Made by a program: the position numbers and the translations under genes. A stretch of 64,000 nucleotides of DNA. It comes from Actomonas aquatica (GTDB lineage Bacteria > Verrucomicrobiota > Verrucomicrobiia > Opitutales > Opitutaceae). Under the pieces are notes generated by a model, which saw only the letters and a program-made list of their open reading frames with translations, ran no database searches and had not been told where the DNA came from. The stretch is taken from the NCBI RefSeq assembly GCF_019679435.2, contig NZ_CP139781.1, forward strand, positions 3,815,753 to 3,879,752, written 5' to 3'. Numbering within the stretch: the stretch's first letter is position 1; every line of letters begins with the position of its first letter. Shown here piece after piece: positions 17,105 through 30,621 of this stretch.

Positions 17105-17161
17105 TAGACCCATCGGTGAGTCATCTCTTTTTGAAAGCATGGGTTGGACGGGAGGCGTGCA

Positions 17162-20100
17162 ATGTCTCTAGCGTCCTCGGCAAGCATGACATCGACCAAA
17201 CGTCCGCCATCGCCTGAGGAACTACGTCAAGCTATCGCCCTGCGACTGGGGCTACTGGGTTGCCCGACGGGCCCCAGTGGTGGGTCGCAGGCGTTGACTG
17301 AGCTTGCTGACCCCATTTTCTCCCGCCACCGGGAGATGACGCGCCAGATGGTGGAGCGTTATGCGCCGGTGGATGGACGCATCCAGCACTTCATCAACCA
17401 GTATCTGGCGGAGCTAGGCGATCCCCCTTCCCTGCCCCTGCGCACGCTGGTCCTCGACCAGCCGGGCCTGGCGCGCGAGCTGTCGCTGCCGGATCGCGGT
17501 GACGCGACGGAGTCGCCGTTGCTCTCGAGCTTCCGTCTGCGCAACGGCGTGTTGCACAACCCGGCCAGCGATCGACGCACAACCAAGGGTGTGTTTCACA
17601 TCGCCGAGGGCGGACTGCCGGTGCCGGAAGACAAGAAGGCGACGCCGAAGCAGGCTTTTGCCAAACTGCTCGAGATGGCTTTCAAGGCCCCCGCCGATAT
17701 TATGCGGGTGCCCTACTCGGCCGATTGGGAGACGCCGGCCTCGGCCTGGGTGTCGCTCATGCTGCGCCCGCTGGTGGTGCCGGAGGTGAAGGGCTTCACC
17801 CGCGCCAAGCGCATGGAGACGCGTTTCTTCGTGCCGGGTTCGTTGGTGGCCAATCTGGACTTTGTGGAGTCGATCTTCGGCAACGGTGGCGACCCCTACC
17901 TGCCGGAGAACGATGCCGCGCTCGATATCGACGGTTGGACCGGCCACACCGGCTGCGTGATCCTCGCTCCGCATCTCGTGAGCGTGCCGAAGATCCTGCT
18001 CGGTCTCCCCCACTACGACCTCGCCACCCCGCGCCAACGCCGCGACGGCATGTGCTGGAAGGACGAGAGCGAACTCTACAACGACGGCTCGGCCTTCAAG
18101 CTGTGCGCCCGCGACGCCCGCGGTGTGGTGGTGACGCTCATCGCCGACAACTACTTCGGCTACTGCAAGAAGGAGGTGAAGACCCAGATCGGTTACGCCG
18201 CCAATCTCTACGGTGTCGCCGAAGAGGAGCACGCCGGTGGTGCGTTGGTTTACCCGTCCTACGACCTGGGTGAGGAATTCGCCGGCAGCGTGCACGTGAA
18301 GTCGCGCGGTCACTCCTTTGCCGAGGTGGTCGAGAAATACAGCGACCTCATCGACGTGAAGCCCGAGGGCTACGCGGTCGATAAGGAGTATCCGTCAATC
18401 TACTACGTGCCGGAAGACGTGCGTTTCGACCTGCCCACCCAGACGGTGGTGTGGACGGGCGATGACGGCGAGACCCGCACTCTGCCCCTGCGCGCCGGCA
18501 TCACTTACGTGCGTCCGTCGGGCTACAAGGTGGAGCTGGAGCAGCCCCCGGGTCAGACGACCTGGAACCTCGTCGGCACGGTCGCCGAGGGCACGCTGTG
18601 CCACAAGCCCTGCACGGTTTCGGGCGGCGGCAAATCGGAAATCTCCAAGGCGATCTCCGACGCCATTCTGCCCGGCACGGTGTTTGTCGCCGACTTCGAG
18701 CGCGACATGAAGCGCGTGCAGGAGCTGCTCGATCATCCGTATCACGAGCGCTTCGCCGATCCCGCCCGCCGCGGCAAGGATCACCGCCCGATCCTGAGCC
18801 CCGAGCGTTCGCTCGGCTCGGTGATCAAACTGCTCACCCCGTCGAACGACTTCTCCGAAGAGTTCAACGACTGGCTGAAGGTCATCCCGCAATACCTGAA
18901 GGAAATCGTCTTCGTGGTGAAGCGCTACTACCAGGCCGACTGGGGCGATGACTGGCGCAGCCACTTCTCGGTGGACATCATCAATGGCACGCCGGGCAAC
19001 GAGCTGAAGTGCGACAACCGCAAGCTGAGCGCGAGCTACCTGCGCGTCGGTTTCCGCGACGACGGTTCGTGGCGTGTCTTCGGTCTGCGCGAGGACTTCC
19101 ATCCCGCCGCCAAGGTGCAGATGGAAGACGACATCACGGCCTCCGTGGTGGTGCCGGCCGATCAGTTGCCGGACCGCGCCGCCGGCAGCACCCGTCTCTC
19201 GGAAAAGTTTGTCGAGAACTGCGAGACCCGTCTCTTCCAGCGCCCCGACGACGCGATCCATCGCGGTTACGACAAGCAGGCCGAGCGCGACCTCGCCGGC
19301 CCGGGCAACTTCATCTCCAACTTCGAACCGCTGACGCGCGAAGACGCCAAGGAGCTGGTGGCCGATGCCGTCAACTTCGACAAGTGGACCGCTCCGGTGA
19401 AGAAGTTGATCAAGGAAGCCGCCACGGCTCCCGACGGTGCCTCCTACTTCGTTTCGCCGGCGCATCCGCGCATCGTGGACGGCAAGCCGACCAAGAACCC
19501 GCGCTACCTGCAGATGCGCCCCGACCTCGTCGATCCGAAGTCGGCGCACCTGGCGAAGATGGCCACGCGCCTGCATCGCCGCGTCGCCGCCGACGCCGCG
19601 GTTTACACGCCGGTCGATGCGGTGGTCCCGGGCCGTCGCAACAACCCGCCGGATGTGAAGGCGGGCATTCGCGCGCTGGCGGTGTTTAACCCGATTCACT
19701 ACTTCGAACTGCCGGAGCTGTTCCTCGAGTTCATCAGCTCGATGACCGGCAAGTCCCCGTCGACCACCGGTGCCGGTTCGGAAGGCGCGCTGACGAAGGG
19801 TCCGTTCAACTGCCTGCCGGCGATCTACGATCTCAATGCCGCGCTGGTTTCGCTGCTGCTCACCGGTCACCCGGTGTTTGTGTCGGCGGCCGGTTACGTG
19901 GGTCCGAAGATGCGCGTCGATCACGACGTGAGTCTGCTCATCCCGGAAGTGTGGTGCCGCATGACGCCCGAGGAGCGCGATCCGCAGTTCCTCATCGATC
20001 ACCTCTACCTCGAGAAGTGCGAAGACATGGAGCACAACGGCGAGAAGGTGCTCTCGAGCCGCCTCGGCTACCGCATCACGGCGAAGTTTGCCCGCACCTT

Positions 20101-20605
20101 CTTCGGTCGCGTGTTCAACCATCCGCACGTGGTCTTCACCGACGACATGCTGAGGCCCGAGCTGCAGGACATGGATCTCTTTGCCGACGGCATGGAGAAC
20201 ATCTGCGTGACCCACGAGCGCGTGGCCCAGGCCTACTTCGACGACGGCACGATCGCCGATGCCTGCCCGCCGCTGGAAGCGCTGTTGCACATCATGGCCA
20301 AGGGCAACTGGAACGGCCATGGACTCGACGCGCCGGAAGTGCGTTCGATGTTCAGCCGCGAAGCGCTGGTGGAGACCGACTGGTATAAGGCCCGTCTCGC
20401 GTCCAAGCAGAAGTGGGATGTCGGTCTCTGGGAGCGTCACATCGAGTCGCTCCGACTGGTGATCGACAATCCGCGCAGCGAAGACGTGGCGGAGCGCATG
20501 GGCCTCACCGCCAAGTTGTGCGAAGCCGAGGCCGAGTTGGCCCGCGTGAGCAGCGACGATTACCTCGCCTCGCTGGTCGGCACGCTGGGTCGCCAGCCGG
20601 TCTGA
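17162..20605 (+). CDS. Probable PPi-dependent phosphoenolpyruvate carboxykinase (1147 aa)
   Basis: Very large single-domain-like protein without signal peptide or membrane segments. Stretches such as VVTLIADNYFGYCKKEVKTQ, YAANLYGVAEEEHAGGALVYP, CTVSGGGKSEISKAISDAIL (a phosphate-loop-like SGGGKSE), and SSMTGKSPSTTGAGSEGALT match, as far as I remember, the PPi-type PEP carboxykinase of Propionibacterium and Entamoeba (about 1130-1150 aa). That enzyme interconverts oxaloacetate and PEP using pyrophosphate. Database annotation is often just hypothetical protein. The start ATG at 17162 has a strong GGGAGG site 6 nt upstream; an earlier TTG does not. Codon use suggests high expression. A strong terminator follows. 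Confidence 0.65.
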   Translation: MSLASSASMTSTKRPPSPEELRQAIALRLGLLGCPTGPSGGSQALTELADPIFSRHREMTRQMVERYAPVDGRIQHFINQYLAELGDPPSLPLRTLVLDQPGLARELSLPDRGDATESPLLSSFRLRNGVLHNPASDRRTTKGVFHIAEGGLPVPEDKKATPKQAFAKLLEMAFKAPADIMRVPYSADWETPASAWVSLMLRPLVVPEVKGFTRAKRMETRFFVPGSLVANLDFVESIFGNGGDPYLPENDAALDIDGWTGHTGCVILAPHLVSVPKILLGLPHYDLATPRQRRDGMCWKDESELYNDGSAFKLCARDARGVVVTLIADNYFGYCKKEVKTQIGYAANLYGVAEEEHAGGALVYPSYDLGEEFAGSVHVKSRGHSFAEVVEKYSDLIDVKPEGYAVDKEYPSIYYVPEDVRFDLPTQTVVWTGDDGETRTLPLRAGITYVRPSGYKVELEQPPGQTTWNLVGTVAEGTLCHKPCTVSGGGKSEISKAISDAILPGTVFVADFERDMKRVQELLDHPYHERFADPARRGKDHRPILSPERSLGSVIKLLTPSNDFSEEFNDWLKVIPQYLKEIVFVVKRYYQADWGDDWRSHFSVDIINGTPGNELKCDNRKLSASYLRVGFRDDGSWRVFGLREDFHPAAKVQMEDDITASVVVPADQLPDRAAGSTRLSEKFVENCETRLFQRPDDAIHRGYDKQAERDLAGPGNFISNFEPLTREDAKELVADAVNFDKWTAPVKKLIKEAATAPDGASYFVSPAHPRIVDGKPTKNPRYLQMRPDLVDPKSAHLAKMATRLHRRVAADAAVYTPVDAVVPGRRNNPPDVKAGIRALAVFNPIHYFELPELFLEFISSMTGKSPSTTGAGSEGALTKGPFNCLPAIYDLNAALVSLLLTGHPVFVSAAGYVGPKMRVDHDVSLLIPEVWCRMTPEERDPQFLIDHLYLEKCEDMEHNGEKVLSSRLGYRITAKFARTFFGRVFNHPHVVFTDDMLRPELQDMDLFADGMENICVTHERVAQAYFDDGTIADACPPLEALLHIMAKGNWNGHGLDAPEVRSMFSREALVETDWYKARLASKQKWDVGLWERHIESLRLVIDNPRSEDVAERMGLTAKLCEAEAELARVSSDDYLASLVGTLGRQPV

Positions 20606-20686: not shown

Positions 20687-22570
20687 GCGGGACTGGTCGA
20701 CGAAGATGCGGATCTCGGCGTCGCGGCGGCCGAGCACCTCGGTGGCGCGCTTGAGGGCGTCGCGGGTGGAGAGGGTCGGGTTGGTGGGCACCTCGCGGAA
20801 GAAGTTCTCCTCGCCGAGGCGCGCGATGAAACCGGAGTTGCGCAGCACGCGGGTGACCTCGCGGCCAGCACCGGAGACGATGAGCTGGCGTTTGGATTTT
20901 TTGAGGAAGTCGTGCAGTTCCTCGATGGCGATGGCGGCGGAGGCGTCGAGGTTGCGGGCGTTTTTGAGGCGCAGGATGATGACCTTGAGGGACGGGTCGC
21001 GGATGACTTCGCGGATCTGTTGGGAGAAGATCTCGGTGGAACCAAAGAAGAGGTCGCCCTCGGCGTGCAGGATGGAGATGCCGGGCACGTTGCGGCGATC
21101 GGGCGTGGGCAGCTCGGCGAGTTGGCCGTCCTGGTTGAAGTTGTATTCGGAGAGCTCGGGTTGGCCGGCCTTTTTGAGGAAGAGCATGATCGACGTGAAG
21201 GCGCCGAGGTAGATGGCGGCGTCGATGGTGAGCAGCAGGGCCGAGCTGAAGGTGACGATGAAGACGACGGTGTCGGAGTGGGTGGTGCGCAGCGCCAGCA
21301 GGAGGTTGCGGCGGTTGATGAGCGAGCAGGCGATGCCCATGACGAGCACGGCGAGGGCGGCCTTGGGGATGAAGTGAATGAGCGGCCCGATGCTGAAGAG
21401 CATCACGGCCACGATGATGCCGCCGTAGACATTGGCCAAGGGGGAGCGGGCGCCGGAGGTGTCGGAGAGCACGGAGCGCGTGAGTGAGCCGGAGGCGTTC
21501 ATGCCGCCGCAGAGGCCGCTGGTGATGTTGGCCATGCCCATGGCATACATCTCCTGGTTGACGACGAAGCGATGGCCGGCGCGGGAGGCGAGGGTCTTGC
21601 CGATGGAGGAGCCCTCGAGGATGGAGACAAAGGCGAGCGCGAGCGCGGGGGCGGCGAGGTCACCGATGAGCTGGTAGTCGAAGGTGCCGGGGAAAAAGCG
21701 CAGGTTGCCGAGGTCGAAGGTCTGCAGGTAGGCGATGTCCCAACCGACATAGCGGAACCCGATGCCCATCACGGCGGTGAGCAGGAGGGTGCCGGCGATG
21801 TTGGGCAGGAAGCGCACCCAGCGCATGAGGCCGAGGTTGATGGCGAGGGTGCCGGCGGCCATGGCGAGCTCGGGCCAGTGGGTCTGCGGGAGCTGGCGCA
21901 CGGTGGCGGCGATGATGCCGACAAAGGTCGAGGCGCCGGCGGTGCGCACGCCGAGGATGTTTTGGATCTGGTTGACGAAAATGAGCGCGGCGGCGGCGGT
22001 GATGTAACCGGTGATGACCGAGCGCGAGATGTAGTTGATCAGCAATGACGCGCGGGCGATCGCGCCGAGCACGAGGAAGACGCCCACCAGCACGACGAAG
22101 AGCGGCACGGCGAGGGCGCGGGTTTCTTCGGGCAGGCCGGTGGAGGCGACGCCGGTGAGCAGCAGGATGGCGGTGGCGTTGGTGGGCCCGAGGCAGATGA
22201 AGCGGGTGCCGCTGAAGAAGGGGCCGACGATGGCGGCGACGGCGCAGCTCACCAGACCCATGAGGGCGGGCACGCCGGCGATGAGCGAGAAGGCGATGCT
22301 CTGGGGGAAGCCGAGGATGGCGACGTTGAAGCCGGCCTTGGCGTCGGCGATGAGGGTCGAACGTTGCGGGCGGCGGAAGAGGCGGCGGCCGGGGAACCAA
22401 TCGATCTGCACGGCGCGCACGGTGGAGCGACCCCAGTAGCGCAGGATGCGACCCCAGTGGCGGCGATGGGGGCGGATCGGATCGGGAGAGGGTGCGATGT
22501 CAGCGGTTGGTTTCGCCTGCGGGGATGCGGCGGCGTCGCTGGAATCCGGACTGGGTGTCGGGTCGCTCAC
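20663..22570 (-). CDS. SulP-family anion transporter with STAS domain
   Basis: The 635-residue inner-membrane protein has a proline-rich cytosolic N-terminus of about 60 residues. The SulP membrane domain follows (AGFNVAILGFPQSIAFSLIAGVPALMGL, then FICLGPTNATAILLL), with about 10-12 hydrophobic segments to residue 470. A C-terminal STAS domain begins near VPGISILHAEGDLFFGSTE and contains NLDASAAIAIEELHDF at the usual DSSG-like site. Family members carry sulfate, bicarbonate or dicarboxylates; substrate unknown. Its last codons are made from the terminator of the convergent gene. Confidence 0.9.
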   Translation of the reverse strand: MSDPTPSPDSSDAAASPQAKPTADIAPSPDPIRPHRRHWGRILRYWGRSTVRAVQIDWFPGRRLFRRPQRSTLIADAKAGFNVAILGFPQSIAFSLIAGVPALMGLVSCAVAAIVGPFFSGTRFICLGPTNATAILLLTGVASTGLPEETRALAVPLFVVLVGVFLVLGAIARASLLINYISRSVITGYITAAAALIFVNQIQNILGVRTAGASTFVGIIAATVRQLPQTHWPELAMAAGTLAINLGLMRWVRFLPNIAGTLLLTAVMGIGFRYVGWDIAYLQTFDLGNLRFFPGTFDYQLIGDLAAPALALAFVSILEGSSIGKTLASRAGHRFVVNQEMYAMGMANITSGLCGGMNASGSLTRSVLSDTSGARSPLANVYGGIIVAVMLFSIGPLIHFIPKAALAVLVMGIACSLINRRNLLLALRTTHSDTVVFIVTFSSALLLTIDAAIYLGAFTSIMLFLKKAGQPELSEYNFNQDGQLAELPTPDRRNVPGISILHAEGDLFFGSTEIFSQQIREVIRDPSLKVIILRLKNARNLDASAAIAIEELHDFLKKSKRQLIVSGAGREVTRVLRNSGFIARLGEENFFREVPTNPTLSTRDALKRATEVLGRRDAEIRIFVDQSRKKKESDD

Positions 22571-22678: not shown

Positions 22679-24565
22679 ATGGAAAAACGGTTGCGATGGA
22701 TGACTGGGCTGAGTGTGGGAGTCGGACTGTGGTGTGCGTTGGGCGCCCAAGAGGAAGCGGGGGCGGTCGACGGGAAGTGGGAGGTGACCAAGGAGGAGGC
22801 GGCGTGGAAGCCGGATGGGTTGTTTGATTTGGGCAACCTGGAGCAGCCGCCGGTGCCGACGTTTCAGGCGAGGCCCGTTTACCCGATGGAACTACGCGTA
22901 GCAGGGATCACGGGGAACGCGATTGTCGGTTTTATCGTGGACTCGCATGGCAAGGTGCGGTCGGCCTACGCGATACGGGCGACGCACCCGGAGTTTGGTG
23001 AGGCCGGGGTGGCGGCCGTGTCGCAGTGGAAATTTGAGCCGGGCCGGGTGGGCGGTCGGGTGGTGAACACGCGTATGCAGGTGCCGCTCTATTTTAACAT
23101 CGTGCCGGATGCTCCCGCGCCGGCGGCAAAGGCACCAGGGATGGAGGAGGAGGAGTGGAAGCCGGATGGGTTGTTTGATTTGAGCGACCTGGAGCAGCAG
23201 CCGGTGCCGACGTCCCAGGCGAGTCCCGTTTATCCTCTGGAACTGCGCGAAGCAGGGATCATGGGAAATGCGATCGTGGGTTTTATCGTGGATAAACAGG
23301 GCAAGGTGCGGTCGCCCTACGCGGTGCGGGCGACGCACCCGGAGTTTGGCGAGGCGGCGGTGGTGGCCGTGGCGCAGTGGAAATTTGAGCCCGGCCAGAA
23401 GGACGGTCAGGTGGTCAACACGCGCATGCAGGTGCCGGTGATTTTTAACCTCCTGCCAGATGATCCCGGTGCCGCTGCGCGCGCCGAGGCGCGGAAGAAG
23501 CTGGCGATAGCGTTACCCAAGGTGAAGGACTCGGTCGATGCGGTGGGAGCATCCCATGTCCCGCCGCCCGAGCTCCAAGTGAAGCAAGCGCCGTGGGACG
23601 TCGCGCCGCAGCCGCTCAAGCAACGCAAGCCGGAGTATCCCTACGCGATGCGGCGGATCGGCGACGATGGCACGGTCGTGCTGCGCCTCTTGGTGCGGAA
23701 GACGGGAGTCGTGGATCAGGTGCACGTGTTGCGCTCGACCAATCCGGGTTTGGATGAAGCGGCGGTGGATGCGGCGCTGGATTGGGTCTTTTCGCCGGCG
23801 ATCAAAAACGGGTTGCCGATCGATGCGGAGTTGCAGGTGCCGATCATGTTCCGGATCGACGGAAAGAAGGCGCGCGACCGTTGGACGATTTCGAAAAACC
23901 TAGGGCCCTGGCCGGAATCGGTGCCGGAGGTCTTTCGCTGGGACACGGCGCCGGAGTTGGTGAGTTATGCCGCGCCGGTGTATCCGCGGGCGGCGCTGAT
24001 GGACGGCCGCAAGGGCAAGGTGCGGGTGAAGTTTGCGATCGATGAACAGGGGCGCGTGCTCACCGCGCTGCCGGCGGAGGACGGGGATCCGGACCTGATG
24101 CAGGCGGCGATCGCGGCAGTGGAGACGTTTCGGTTTAAACCGGCGCGGCGGGAGTGGAAGCCGTGCGGCGCGATCCTGAACATGGAGTTTAACTTCACGA
24201 CGAACTCGCGATCCGATGCGCCGGTTTCGCGCGACACCATACGGGTGCTCAAGCAGTTGAAGCGAGGTAAGGACCGATTCGCGGACCTGACGGAATTGGA
24301 TGGTTTGCCTGAGCCGTTGTCGCAGCGCCCGCCGAAGACGCCGCCGCAGTTGCTCAAAGAGGGAAAGGGGGGCGAAGTGCTGTTGGAGGTGGTGATCGAT
24401 CGGAAGGGTTTTGTGCGTTTGCCCAAAGTGCTGGAGGCTACGGATCCTGCGTTGGGCGCGGCGGCGATTCACGCGGTCAGCAACTGGCGCTATGCCGCGC
24501 CGCTGCGCGACGGTGAAGCGGTCGATGTCGTGGCGAAGTTGCCGGTGGTGTTTCGGGTGGAGTGA
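22679..24565 (+). CDS. Secreted protein of five tandem TonB C-terminal-like domains
   Basis: The 628-residue protein has a short signal peptide (MEKRLRWMTGLSVGVGLWCA) and no proline-rich spacer or other membrane anchor, unlike real TonB. Five copies of the TonB_C pattern (PxYP-x-E-LR-x2-G-I-x-G-x-V-x2-FIV, then A-x2-AV-x2-W-x-FEP) are seen at about 62-142, 179-259, 314-395, 430-515 and 550-628. Copies 1 and 2 are nearly identical and are encoded by a 351-nt tandem duplication. The next gene is a shorter paralogue whose three domains correspond to copies 3-5. Start ATG 22679 is chosen because the signal peptide begins there. Function unknown; likely periplasmic protein binding. Confidence 0.8.
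   Translation: MEKRLRWMTGLSVGVGLWCALGAQEEAGAVDGKWEVTKEEAAWKPDGLFDLGNLEQPPVPTFQARPVYPMELRVAGITGNAIVGFIVDSHGKVRSAYAIRATHPEFGEAGVAAVSQWKFEPGRVGGRVVNTRMQVPLYFNIVPDAPAPAAKAPGMEEEEWKPDGLFDLSDLEQQPVPTSQASPVYPLELREAGIMGNAIVGFIVDKQGKVRSPYAVRATHPEFGEAAVVAVAQWKFEPGQKDGQVVNTRMQVPVIFNLLPDDPGAAARAEARKKLAIALPKVKDSVDAVGASHVPPPELQVKQAPWDVAPQPLKQRKPEYPYAMRRIGDDGTVVLRLLVRKTGVVDQVHVLRSTNPGLDEAAVDAALDWVFSPAIKNGLPIDAELQVPIMFRIDGKKARDRWTISKNLGPWPESVPEVFRWDTAPELVSYAAPVYPRAALMDGRKGKVRVKFAIDEQGRVLTALPAEDGDPDLMQAAIAAVETFRFKPARREWKPCGAILNMEFNFTTNSRSDAPVSRDTIRVLKQLKRGKDRFADLTELDGLPEPLSQRPPKTPPQLLKEGKGGEVLLEVVIDRKGFVRLPKVLEATDPALGAAAIHAVSNWRYAAPLRDGEAVDVVAKLPVVFRVE
22805..23467 (+). repeat. 351-nt tandem duplication inside the five-domain TonB_C gene
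   Basis: The sequence beginning TGGAAGCCGGATGGGTTGTT at 22805 recurs at 23156, a period of exactly 117 codons. Long identical blocks remain, for example TGGAAATTTGAGCC and GACGCACCCGGAGTTTGG. The copies have diverged in many third positions and a few residues. Confidence 0.85.
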
Positions 24566-24723
24566 GTCGCCGGCGGACGCGGCGGGCGAGGAGTTCGCTC
24601 AGGGCCCGCGGCAAAAGCGGGGGGCCAAAGCCGCGGCAACGTCGACCGGTGACGCCGTGAATACCCGCTAAACTACGCCGCGCGGAGCTTGCGTGCCCTC
24701 AAGGAACCCGCTCGGCTCAAGTC

Positions 24724-25836
24724 ATGATCTTTCAGCGATTTGGGTCATGGTGTTCACCACATAAAATCGCGGGGTTCCTGGCCGGCACCGCTTTCTTCCT
24801 CCTCCTCTCCGGAGTCCCTGCAAGGGCTCAGGACCGCGATCCAGCGGAGCTGGACGTGCAGCCCAAGGTCACGCGCCAGCAGAAGCCCATCTATCCTTTT
24901 GCGATGCATCGCCTGGGAATCACGGGTCAGGTGATCGTTGCCTTTATTGTCCAGTCCGATGGACGCGTCGGCGCGGCCTATGCCGTCAAGGCCTCGCATC
25001 CGAGCTTCCGGCAGGCCGCGATCGACGCTGTCGAGCGGTGGCGCTTCGAACCCGGCCGGAAGGACGGCCGCGCGGTGGACGTGCGCATGCAGGTCCCGAT
25101 CATCTTTAATATTACCGGTGAACCCCAAAACCTCGGCTGGAAGGTGAAACGACCGCGCGAGTTCCCCGAGACGATCCCGCGCAAGTTTCGCTGGGACGAT
25201 GCCCCCGTGCTGGTCGACTACAGCCCGCCGGTTTACCCCCGCCAAGCCCTGCTGGAAAAGCGCTACGGCAAAGTGACGGTGAGTTTCATGGTCTCGCCCA
25301 CCGGGCAGGTCATCCAAACCCAAGCCGAGCCAGACGGCGATCCCGACTTCCAAGGCGCGGCCGTGGCCGCCGCGGAGACTTTCCGGTTCAAGCCGGCCAA
25401 ACTGGACGACGGGACGCCTTGCGGGGCCATCCTCAAAATGGAGTTCGATTTTTATCTCTCCTCCGACCGGAGCGATGCGCCCTACACCGACGAGATGCGC
25501 CGGATCATCAAGGTGCTCAGCCGCAAGCCAGACTCTTTGCCGGGCCTGAAGGATCTCGACAAGATGCCGCGGCCGGTCGCGCAGCGTGCTCCCACGGTTC
25601 CCCCGGAGCTGCAGCGGAAAGGTCAACCGGCCAAGGCCATGGTGGAGTTCATCATCAGCCGCAGTGGCCTCGTGCTCCTGCCGCGCGTGGTGGAGACCAC
25701 CGATGAAGCCTTCGGCTACGCCGCGGTCCATGCGGTGGCCGACTGGGGCTTTGTGCCGCCGGTGATCGACGGTAAACCGGTTGATGTGATCGCGCGGGTT
25801 CCCGTCGCCTACAACCCTGAGCCGAGCGGGGATTGA
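24724..25836 (+). CDS. Secreted protein of three tandem TonB C-terminal-like domains
   Basis: The 370-residue protein has a signal peptide (KIAGFLAGTAFFLLLSGVPA, cleavage near ARAQ). Three TonB_C-like domains lie at about 52-133 (KPIYPFAMHRLGITGQVIVAF), 169-250 (PPVYPRQALLEKRYGKVTVSF) and 290-367 (PPELQRKGQPAKAMVEFII). They align with domains 3-5 of the upstream gene, including the shared linkers FRWDDAPVLVDY and SDRSDAPYTDEMRR, so the pair arose by gene duplication. It lacks a membrane anchor. It is separated from its paralogue by 158 nt with only weak GC-rich hairpins and may have its own promoter. Confidence 0.82.
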   Translation: MIFQRFGSWCSPHKIAGFLAGTAFFLLLSGVPARAQDRDPAELDVQPKVTRQQKPIYPFAMHRLGITGQVIVAFIVQSDGRVGAAYAVKASHPSFRQAAIDAVERWRFEPGRKDGRAVDVRMQVPIIFNITGEPQNLGWKVKRPREFPETIPRKFRWDDAPVLVDYSPPVYPRQALLEKRYGKVTVSFMVSPTGQVIQTQAEPDGDPDFQGAAVAAAETFRFKPAKLDDGTPCGAILKMEFDFYLSSDRSDAPYTDEMRRIIKVLSRKPDSLPGLKDLDKMPRPVAQRAPTVPPELQRKGQPAKAMVEFIISRSGLVLLPRVVETTDEAFGYAAVHAVADWGFVPPVIDGKPVDVIARVPVAYNPEPSGD

Positions 25837-25874: not shown

Positions 25875-26285
25875 ATGGCCGACGCCGAGACCTCCCCTAC
25901 CCCGTCTGCGCCTGAACTCGGCCAGGTCGCGATCACGGTGGCCGATTTGGCGGCGGCGACGGCGTTTTATCGCGACGTGTTGGGACTGCGGTTCCTGTTC
26001 GCGGCGGGTCCGAACCTCGCCTTTTTGCAAGCGGGGGCGGTGCGGGTGATGCTGAGTGTGCCGCAGGGGCACGGAGCGCCGGGGAAAAACTCGGCGCTGT
26101 ATTTTAAGGTCGAGCAAATCGTGGAGACGCACGCAGCGATGGTGGCGAAGGGCGCGGTCAACGAGCGGGCGCCGGCGATGGCGGCCCCGATGCCGGATCA
26201 CGATTTGTGGATCGGGTTTTTGCGGGATCCGGAAGGCAATTTGGTCGGTTTAATGGAAGAAGTGAGACCCCCGGCAGAACGATGA
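25875..26285 (+). CDS. VOC-superfamily (glyoxalase/bleomycin-resistance-like) protein
   Basis: The 136-residue protein has the paired beta-alpha-beta modules of the family: LGQVAITVADLAAATAFYRDVLGLRF first, then LYFKVEQIVETHAAMVAKG and DHDLWIGFLRDPEGNLVGLMEE. The metal-binding Glu near the end of the second module (GLMEE) is present. Members include glyoxalase I, epimerases and dioxygenases, so activity cannot be assigned. Its stop overlaps the start of the FKBP gene (ATGA), so the two are co-translated. Confidence 0.88.
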   Translation: MADAETSPTPSAPELGQVAITVADLAAATAFYRDVLGLRFLFAAGPNLAFLQAGAVRVMLSVPQGHGAPGKNSALYFKVEQIVETHAAMVAKGAVNERAPAMAAPMPDHDLWIGFLRDPEGNLVGLMEEVRPPAER

Positions 26286-26779
26286 AAGGAACGATTGTAG
26301 CGATAGTGCTCTTGGTCGCCGCGGCGGCCGGCGTGTGGTGGTATGCGGATCAGCGCAATGCGCGGATCGCGGCTGAGCGCGAAGCGGCGCGCGTGGCGGC
26401 CGAACAAGCGGTGCGCGACGAGCGGCTGGAATTGTTTGGCGAGGAGGCGCTGGCCGAAGGCATTGCCTGGACCGATTCCGGGCTGGGCATCCTGCACCTC
26501 GAGAGCGGCAGTGGCGCGAAGCCGTATCCGGGAGCGTATGTGAAATTTAAATACCGCGTGCGGCTGAAGGACGGCACGGAAGTGCAGCGGGAAGACAAAC
26601 CCACCGAGGCGCGCATCGGCCAGATGATCCCGGGGGTGTCGTCGGGCCTGCAGCAGATGCTGCCGGGTGGGCGGGCGATCCTGTTTATCCCGCCACGCTT
26701 GGGTTACGGCGGATCCGCGTATGGTCCGATTCCGCCGAACTCCGGCCTCGTGTTTGAGGTCGAGTTGCTGAAACCGTGA
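26282..26779 (+). CDS. FKBP-type peptidyl-prolyl isomerase, membrane-anchored
   Basis: The 165-residue protein has an N-terminal hydrophobic segment (GTIVAIVLLVAAAAGVWWYA) that anchors it to, or sends it across, the inner membrane. An Ala/Glu/Arg-rich helix (residues 25-50) resembling the FkpA/Mip dimerisation part follows. The C-terminal FKBP domain has YVKFKYRVRLKDGTEV, IPGVSSGLQQMLPGGRAILFIPPRLGYG and IPPNSGLVFEVELLKP. It catalyses proline isomerisation in the periplasm. The start overlaps the VOC stop by 4 nt. Confidence 0.92.
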   Translation: MKGTIVAIVLLVAAAAGVWWYADQRNARIAAEREAARVAAEQAVRDERLELFGEEALAEGIAWTDSGLGILHLESGSGAKPYPGAYVKFKYRVRLKDGTEVQREDKPTEARIGQMIPGVSSGLQQMLPGGRAILFIPPRLGYGGSAYGPIPPNSGLVFEVELLKP

Positions 26780-29829: not shown

Positions 29830-30621
29830 TCAGGTGGACGGGCTGGCGACGTCGGTCGGGTTCTCGGGAACCTCGGGAGTTTCAACCTCCTCCGGAATGT
29901 CAGGAGTTTCGGTGTCGCCGGTTTCCTCAGCCGGAGCTTCGTCGGCTGGAGCGTCGCCGGAATCACCGCTGTCACCGGAATCACCGCTGTCACCGGAATC
30001 ACCGCTGTCACCTCCGGTGGAACCTTGGGAGGCGGCGTCGGCAATGGCCTGAGAGTCTTGGCCGGTTTGTTCGGCAGCTTCTTGGGCACCTTGCTGGGCG
30101 CCGGAAGATGCGGCGGAAGTTACAGCTTGGACGTCACTTCCGGTGTTAGTGGCTGCCTGGGTGGCACCAGAAGTGGCACCAGAGGACGCGGCAGCGGCAA
30201 CGGATACGCTGTCACCGCCCGAATTGGCGGCGGCGACCACTGCGCCTTGAGTGGCACCAGCGGCCGCGGCTTGGGCGATTGCAGCGACATTACCTCCAGG
30301 AGTGGCGGCGACGGTTTCGGTCACGGCTTCGGTCACCGTAGCGGCGACGACTTGGACGATGTCGGCGGTGACAACTTCGGTGCCACCGTCGCTGGAAACG
30401 TCGGCGACGATGTCGGCCACGGCGGCTTGAACAGCGGCGGCGTCGGTCAAGTTCACGCCGGCAGCGGCGAGAGCTTGTTGAACAGCGGCTTTACCTTGGG
30501 CACCACCCGCGCGGATGGCGGCGCGTTGGGCAGCGGTGAGTGTAACCGTTTGGGCAAAAGCGACTGCACTGATCAGCATGCTGATCAGGAGGCCCTGAGT
30601 GAGGAGTCGGATGAATTTCAT
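29830..30621 (-). CDS. Secreted Ala/Gly/Ser-rich low-complexity protein with a GDS repeat
   Basis: I do not recognise this 263-residue protein. A signal peptide (LLTQGLLISMLISAVAFAQ) is followed by a short helical part resembling LTAAQRAAIRAGG. About 130 residues made almost only of Ala, Gly, Ser, Thr, Val and Gln follow (AAAAGATQGAVVAAANSGG style). Then comes (GDS) repeated six or seven times and an acidic Pro/Glu/Thr tail. There are no cysteines or aromatic residues in the repeat part. It is likely an extracellular or periplasmic structural or linker-like protein. It has its own terminator and stands next to the atp operon without an obvious link. Confidence 0.75.
   Translation of the reverse strand: MKFIRLLTQGLLISMLISAVAFAQTVTLTAAQRAAIRAGGAQGKAAVQQALAAAGVNLTDAAAVQAAVADIVADVSSDGGTEVVTADIVQVVAATVTEAVTETVAATPGGNVAAIAQAAAAGATQGAVVAAANSGGDSVSVAAAASSGATSGATQAATNTGSDVQAVTSAASSGAQQGAQEAAEQTGQDSQAIADAASQGSTGGDSGDSGDSGDSGDSGDSGDAPADEAPAEETGDTETPDIPEEVETPEVPENPTDVASPST
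29959..30012. repeat. Three perfect copies of an 18-nt unit
   Basis: GGAATCACCGCTGTCACC is repeated three times without change, encoding GDSGDS on the minus strand. The perfect copies suggest slippage-driven length change between strains. Confidence 0.9.

Follow-up and report, generated by a model that had tools for sequence, protein, structure and literature searches.

Tandem TonB C-terminal domain proteins of Actomonas aquatica without a recognisable motor link, possible periplasmic binders of TonB-dependent receptors

Introduction

It has long been asked how a single TonB, or a few of them, can serve dozens of receptors. The question is raised again by two neighbouring genes, P0001 and P0002, in a 64,000-nucleotide stretch of the genome of Actomonas aquatica (Verrucomicrobiota, Opitutaceae; assembly GCF_019679435.2, contig NZ_CP139781.1, positions 3,815,753 to 3,879,752 of the forward strand). 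This whole stretch is called the window; 3815752 is added to a window position to obtain the coordinate on the contig. The encoded proteins are made of five and three TonB C-terminal (TonB_C) domains, and the question is what natural copies of the receptor-gripping domain would do without a motor. The reading put forward here is that both proteins are exported, periplasmic, non-energised binders of TonB-dependent receptors that would compete with TonB or regulate it, and that their diverged domains would bind another partner; it is offered tentatively, with a somewhat less than even chance of being right. Motor-less copies of this kind would amount to a competitor or buffer, and this bacterium, with its set of over 60 receptors, allows the question to be tested directly. 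They are also a warning for annotation, as TonB_C in this lineage often occurs without the parts needed for energy transduction.

Domain Organization and Predicted Fold

The two open reading frames (ORFs) lie on the same strand with a gap of 158 bases. In the following list, conservation is given as the number of residues kept out of 44 positions that are invariant in 8 TonBs of the family.

22679..24565, + strand: P0001 ORF, 628 amino acids (aa; stop included), five tandem TonB_C domains
22679..22747, + strand: P0001 candidate cleavable export signal, residues 1-23, cut site by eye, home-made score 3.07
22871..23101, + strand: P0001 domain 1, TonB_C, inside the housekeeping-TonB clade, 34/44
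23222..23452, + strand: P0001 domain 2, TonB_C, sister to domain 1, 35/44
23627..23857, + strand: P0001 domain 3, TonB_C, opening the conserved C-terminal three-domain module, 24/44
23858..23971, + strand: P0001 linker between domains 3 and 4, common to P0002, predicted local distance difference test (pLDDT) score below 50 at residues 396-400
23972..24196, + strand: P0001 domain 4, TonB_C, diverged, 15/44
24197..24340, + strand: P0001 linker between domains 4 and 5, predicted ordered, helix at residues 518-529
24341..24556, + strand: P0001 domain 5, TonB_C, diverged, 15/44, without the YP motif
24724..25836, + strand: P0002 ORF, 370 aa (stop included), three tandem TonB_C domains
24724..24828, + strand: P0002 predicted cleavable export signal, residues 1-35, ending ARA, cut site by eye
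24883..25113, + strand: P0002 domain 1, TonB_C, TonB-like, 34/44
25225..25455, + strand: P0002 domain 2, TonB_C, diverged, 17/44
25591..25815, + strand: P0002 domain 3, TonB_C, diverged, 22/44

Pfam comparison at a cut-off of 24.6 detected TonB_C five times in P0001 (254.8 bits) and three times in P0002 (146.4 bits), and no other family above its cut-off. All eight domains exceed the TonB_C cut-off individually, with 40.5 to 69 bits each in a six-frame search of the genome, which bears out the initial annotation in its description of two proteins made of TonB_C domains only. Its statement that linkers are common to the paralogues is equally sound: residues 304-628 of P0001 and 41-366 of P0002 can be aligned in 327 columns, of which 44% are identical, at the cost of 3 gap positions. 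Both proteins also match the model of MxcH-type receptors (NCBIfam NF038079), repeatedly and only over its first ~90 positions; they score 186.8 and 91.7 where the cut-off is 925, and contain neither plug nor barrel. A promoter scan returned 0 promoter-like sites, and terminator-like sites numbered 6 versus 4.3 expected by chance.

AlphaFold2 models, computed with 24 family sequences for P0001 and 23 module sequences for P0002, return the fold of the TonB C-terminal domain (Pfam PF03544; structures 6i97 chain D, 1u07, 2gsk and 2grx). The closest solved structure is in both cases TonB bound to FoxA (6i97 chain D), with a Z score of 12.3 and a root-mean-square deviation of 1.6 over 89 residues for domain 2 of P0001, and with values of 12.6 and 1.7 over 89 residues for domain 1 of P0002. 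TonB structures thereby outrank TolA, the best Z scores of which are 6.5 and 6.3, respectively. TolA domain III is distantly similar in fold (Z 4 to 6.5), the window domains being closer to TonB in both sequence and structure. Outside TonB and TolA, nothing above Z 3.5 was found among solved structures, in a search that is not informative on the three-domain arrangement; structure comparison was also run with Foldseek.

For P0001, the mean pLDDT is 81.5 and the predicted template modelling score (pTM) 0.55; its domains have ten-residue pLDDT means of 78 to 97, pLDDT is low in the two linkers that join domain 2 to domains 1 and 3, and residues 511-550 between domains 4 and 5, including the helix, have values of 90 to 97. 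For P0002, the mean pLDDT is 88.2 and the pTM 0.81, by which the arrangement of its three domains is predicted with some confidence. The linkers of P0002 stay above 90 except for a dip to 65 at residues 131-140, the counterpart of which in P0001 is the low stretch at 396-400, so that the module may be flexible at its first joint. Since prediction gives mostly ordered linkers in the last three domains, these domains would form a semi-rigid module rather than beads on a string, and the picture of a floppy scaffold is not supported for this part of the proteins.

Export and Motor Linkage

The TonB of A. aquatica, a protein of 228 aa, carries the motif SVSLHAG close to the N-terminus and has a linker and a single TonB_C domain; its operon, situated elsewhere in the genome, contains an ExbB-family gene (Pfam MotA_ExbB, 93.5 bits) and two ExbD genes. 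In comparison with this TonB, to which domains 1 and 2 of P0001 and domain 1 of P0002 are close in sequence, the window proteins have several domains in tandem, lack the anchor, the rod, and an adjacent ExbBD, and have diverged in their other domains. Nothing like SVSLHAG, that is, an inner-membrane anchor with a motor-contact histidine motif, is present in P0001 or P0002. No hydrophobic segment follows the signal, the highest 19-residue hydropathy beyond it being 1.22 in P0001 and 1.45 in P0002, and neither protein has a lipobox. A periplasm-spanning rod is absent as well, domain 1 beginning ~41 (P0001) and ~18 (P0002) residues past the assumed cut site, and none of the 9 ExbD matches of the genome lies near the window. 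The initial annotation, which had described the proteins as devoid of membrane anchor and proline-rich rod, was right in this respect; a missed anchor with ExbBD linkage was not found.

Export was judged by a home-made signal score rather than by SignalP. The control consisted of stretches from inside the 23 tandem proteins of the family described below (best of five starts each), which gave a 95th percentile of 3.07, a 99th percentile of 3.53, and a maximum of 3.89. P0002 (3.32) lies between the two percentiles, and the N-termini of both proteins agree with a permissive cleavage-site rule. As the score of P0001 is weak by itself, the case for its export draws on the family-wide scores: 22 of the 23 proteins lie at or above the 95th percentile of the control, L084 (2.33) lying below it, and 16 of the 23 score under the control maximum. 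The family as a whole is therefore likely to be exported, with P0001 alone weakly supported. Of the signal peptides claimed initially, what stands are signal-like N-termini.

Origin of the Domains

The ancestry of the domains was inferred from a tree of 120 domains and 86 columns, in which 62 of the 117 inner branches are open. Domains below 35 bits were excluded, and the loci with M56 and split genes were kept outside the tandem set. The labels anchored, single, and double were assigned by rule and some are rough: L049 is a TonB called unanchored, L006 is a sigma-factor protein called anchored, L004_sol2 and L024_sol1 are fragments of the window proteins truncated at locus ends, and the L058 rows represent the split gene of genome G046.

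P0001 domains 1 and 2 group as sisters (support 90) within a clade of 13 rows that holds 7 anchored TonBs (Shimodaira-Hasegawa-like approximate likelihood ratio test, 97), and the nearest anchored TonB to them in this clade is that of A. aquatica. Domain 1 shares 64% identity with this TonB and 77% with domain 2 (97 residues), at 0.13 nonsynonymous (dN) and 0.27 synonymous (dS) substitutions per site. By this sequence comparison, the two domains are young duplicates of the end of the housekeeping TonB. The copied unit extends to the segment before the domain, which reads LFDLGNLEQPPVP in P0001 and LFDLKNLDEQPTP in TonB. The same clade also holds domains of G054 (L033, a two-domain protein) and of G020 (L072).

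On the tree, label changes at the last, last-but-one, and last-but-two positions number 4, 4, and 7, compared with 20.5 to 21.2 after shuffling; the domains of tandem proteins thus group by their position in the protein across genera. This clustering suggests that the C-terminal three-domain module predates the genera. P0002 and its homologue at the same place in the sister species have 49% identity (dN 0.48, dS ~2, near saturation).

Conservation of the TonB-Box Grip

In the complex of FoxA and TonB, the TonB box of the receptor forms an additional strand parallel to TonB residues 332-337, held chiefly by backbone hydrogen bonds, and TonB R266 and R271 give side contacts, as described in PMC6699858. 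The counterparts of residues 332-337, derived from the offset of the structural alignment and uncertain by one residue, are PIIFNI in domain 1 of P0002 and PVIFNL in domain 2 of P0001; the TonB of A. aquatica has PIVFNI. Residues other than arginine occupy the counterparts of R266 and R271. This box-gripping strand, beta-3, is nearly all kept in three of the eight domains (P0001 domains 1 and 2, P0002 domain 1), the same ones that retain 34 or 35 of the 44 TonB-invariant residues. In them the main grip looks kept, with changed side contacts. Receptor binding and competition with TonB, as the initial annotation had envisaged, may thus be expected of these three domains. The expectation is not supported for every domain, with 15/44 kept in each of P0001 domains 4 and 5, and 17 and 22 in P0002 domains 2 and 3. 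The other members of the family have medians of 26 in the last-but-two, 17.5 in the last-but-one, and 18 in the last domain.

The reverse possibility, that the window proteins are themselves clients of TonB, was tried and rejected. From 20 receptor N-termini of the genome, 16 boxes were recognised by eye and 4 sequences had no clear box; after removal of 2 unaligned boxes, 14 were used for a matrix. The highest-scoring segments reach 0.6 in P0001 and 1.3 in P0002, compared with 95th percentiles of 4.9 and 3.2, respectively, for shuffled sequences and a lowest training score of 14.3. Having no TonB-box-like segment above these percentiles, the proteins look like binders and not clients. The mature proteins of some relatives start with AQDVTV-like sequences, recalling enterobacterial TonB boxes and unlike the boxes of this genome, which are of the type VxLxxFxVTGS.

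Distribution in the Family

The initial annotation had suggested a survey of anchorless proteins with multiple TonB_C domains, and this has been carried out on 61 genomes of the same taxonomic family, that of A. aquatica included. P0001 has matches in 21 of the 61 at E<=1e-30, some of which are plain TonBs. Reading of the frames yielded 14 genomes with proteins of at least three TonB_C domains and no other recognised part; with G003, where a five-domain protein lies beside a four-domain one, at least 15 of the 61 genomes have tandem proteins, a lower bound, as part of the genomes were read for them. The 23 tandem proteins extracted include the window pair and exclude those of G003 and the split gene of G046. 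None of the 23 has a lipobox or a later membrane segment (highest later hydropathy 1.48), 19 alignment columns are invariant across them, and members of different genera share the domain order and the linkers of the module.

In a phylum sample of 288 genomes (25 from this family, 263 others), with scoring limited to the 6 or 7 best candidates of each genome, full-length matches occurred in the family only. With P0002 at E<=1e-25, 11 of the 288 genomes were matched, all among the 25 of the family, G026 by way of a single TonB domain; none of the 263 genomes from outside the family was matched at this threshold. The remaining 10 of those 11 genomes are the only ones in the sample with full-length matches to a profile of the module, which covers one or two domains outside the family. 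The initial annotation did not anticipate this spread, the TonB ancestry of P0001 domains 1 and 2, or the predicted order of the linkers within the module.

Tandem TonB_C genes are adjacent in several genera (L073, L081, L083, L085, L117, L115, and the window). In G040, G054, and G027, and also in G034, where the genes are 6 kb apart, one of the two belongs to a distinct four-domain subgroup. This adjacency, including that with the four-domain subgroup, suggests that the products of paired genes work together. In G046, a tandem gene is apparently split (L087:8813-10509), an ORF of 457 aa with three domains overlapping one of 110 aa that encodes the last domain and has no export signal. A two-domain relative with lipobox-like LAGC (L082:9111-9935) and a single-domain TonB_C protein with lipobox-like FAGC (L085:7226-7666) are possibly lipid-anchored versions, judging from these motifs.

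TonB_C Proteins and Receptors of the Host Genome

The six-frame search of the A. aquatica genome gave 33 TonB_C matches at E<=0.01, of which 32 are above the cut-off and eight are the window domains. Ten other TonB_C ORFs (L002, L005, L007, L009, L011, L012, L013, L016, L018, and L019) are short, with one or two domains and an N-terminus that is signal-like by eye. TonB_C proteins without evident anchor are thus common in this genome, P0001 having the most domains, and the new use of the domain that had been claimed for the window pair is accordingly less exceptional than it was made to appear. Plug matches number 64 at E<=0.01 and 63 at E<=1e-4, which indicates a large receptor set. Across the family sample, TonB_C matches range from 1 to 36 per genome; receptor number was considered as an explanation of domain number and is a weak one once genome size is corrected for.

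Several TonB_C proteins have additional parts. A frame of 437 aa near 5.53 Mb (L006:1468-2778, - strand, and L099) contains sigma-70 regions 2 and 4, a C-terminal TonB_C, and a hydrophobic segment recognised by eye, and adjoins a frame for a receptor with STN and Plug; by its domain content, it is possibly a sigma factor that reads its receptor directly. G030 encodes a protein of 1123 aa (L086:6856-10224) with an M56 (BlaR1) peptidase, Secretin_N, a sub-threshold STN, and three TonB_C domains, and this gene is followed by one for a 150-aa single TonB_C protein with signal-like N-terminus. In A. aquatica, L026 (4077956) has Sel1 repeats followed by TonB_C, with an N-terminus that is signal-like by eye.

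Proposed Role and Alternative Explanations

The receptor-binding role proposed for P0001 and P0002 would proceed as follows. Both proteins would be exported to the periplasm without a motor link and hence could not be energised. Their TonB-like domains (P0001 domains 1 and 2, P0002 domain 1) would most likely take receptor TonB boxes as an extra beta strand, as TonB does. Receptors so bound would be held, shielded, or kept ready, by which competition for TonB among at least 60 receptors would be lowered or ordered. The other domains, above all P0001 domains 4 and 5 and P0002 domains 2 and 3 within the semi-rigid module, would more likely serve another partner or form an assembly platform. In a bolder version, which we consider rather doubtful, the proteins would constitute a lineage-specific control layer: motor-less multi-TonB proteins would occupy TonB boxes, the module would dock to a common partner, and the sharing of few motors by many receptors would be regulated.

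Several observations weigh against receptor binding of this kind. In domains 1 and 2 of P0001 and domain 1 of P0002, the RR of TonB (FEMRRAGI, near the positions of R266 and R271) is replaced by RV, RE, and HR, respectively, and the TonB-invariant REFE by PEFG, PEFG, and PSFR. The export score of P0001 only equals the 95th percentile of the control. No receptor gene is adjacent to P0001 or P0002, and the neighbourhood of the tandem genes seen in the window is not kept outside the genus. G026, G031, and G018, with 144, 120, and 75 Plug candidates at first look, have only 3, 2, and 3 TonB_C matches. After removal of genome size, the correlation between TonB_C and Plug counts is weak (partial correlation 0.22, P 0.09, kinship not corrected, genomes with 64 or 65 Plug matches entered with their first-look candidate number; 0.26, P 0.04, kinship not corrected, with a ceiling of 64 Plug matches). 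Taken together with the three receptor-rich genomes, this argues against a simple dose rule.

The main rival explanation would make the pair soluble partners of surface-signalling systems, in which TonB_C reads the state of a receptor and informs membrane-bound regulators, with no competition involved. It ranks as such because TonB_C is found in the sigma-factor protein beside an STN receptor in the same genome and, in the relative G030, in the M56 protein, fusions which indicate that unmotorised TonB_C occurs in signalling-type proteins of the lineage. P0001 and P0002, however, contain no signalling domain by Pfam, and no regulator or STN protein was seen beside them, so that this explanation is held to be unlikely, if worth keeping in mind. 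We would give much the same low rank to a role in envelope assembly without receptors, in which the module would bind Tol-Pal-type or other periplasmic proteins in the manner of the TolA C-terminal domain and domains 1 and 2 would be a late addition. The module is indeed the conserved part, copies from the TonB clade being seen in few further members (L072 and the two-domain L033), and P0001 domains 4 and 5 have lost most TonB-invariant residues; domain 4 gives a partial TolA match of 24.5 bits (cut-off 25), P0002 having none at E<=1. Against this stand the Z scores, in which TonB is far above TolA, and the first domain of the module, which is still TonB-like in P0002.

That the proteins are relaxed by-products of repeated duplication of the TonB end, with little or no function, would fit the wide range of TonB_C numbers per genome and the youth of P0001 domains 1 and 2 (dN/dS ~0.46). 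It is made improbable by the module, whose order and linkers are kept across genera with 19 invariant columns in 23 members, by the dN of P0002, about a quarter of its near-saturated dS, and by the uniform lack of lipobox and later membrane segment in all 23. Least probable are true TonBs with a missed inner-membrane anchor, driven by ExbBD encoded elsewhere: cleavage of the hydrophobic N-termini might not take place, and P0001 has a modest export score, but an SVSLHAG-like motif, a rod between N-terminus and first domain, and an ExbD gene nearby are all missing, and the N-termini agree with the permissive cleavage-site rule.

Relation to Known TonB Proteins

In 2007, Chu, Peacock and Vogel reportedly described MecR1-TonB fusions as well as TonBs that carry two serial C-terminal domains, and most of these proteins are said to have had a transmembrane anchor. 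The window proteins likewise have more than one C-terminal domain in a row; they differ in that an anchor was not found and in having three to five domains in fixed order. By the title of their 2001 paper, Howard et al. are said to have found transport by FecA and FhuA inhibited when the periplasmic domain of TonB is produced in E. coli, a precedent for the proposed competition. That construct is an unanchored periplasmic TonB domain, as would be the case here, but it is artificial and derived from one TonB, whereas the window proteins are natural, multi-domain, and conserved. Two TonB C-terminal domains in series are thus reportedly already known; secreted tandem TonB_C proteins, anchorless and with three to five domains, are undescribed among the literature matches listed, from a search outside which most subscription journals lie. 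The available part of PMC12204202 does not mention tandem TonB_C proteins.

Gene Neighbourhood

Upstream of P0001, a divergent gene starts at 22570. Downstream of P0002, two genes follow, which are given as context and not as proven partners:

25875..26285, + strand: glyoxalase-family gene, just 3' of P0002, same order in the sister species
26207..26779, + strand: downstream gene for an FKBP-type prolyl isomerase, order shared with the sister species

The surroundings are kept in the sister species with a sulfate-permease gene, glyoxalase, FKBP, and FeoB (Pfam names), and G051 and G002, which belong to one genus, have common surroundings for their tandem genes; in the other genomes, the locations of the genes are unrelated. 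An ORF of 1153 aa at 17144-20605 (+ strand) also accompanies the tandem gene of the sister species; it has no Pfam match at E<=0.001 and is reminiscent of a phosphoenolpyruvate carboxykinase of the diphosphate type. At 29830-30621 (- strand), the window contains an alanine-rich ORF with GDS repeats, an N-terminus that is signal-like by eye, and a tail that is acidic and contains proline.

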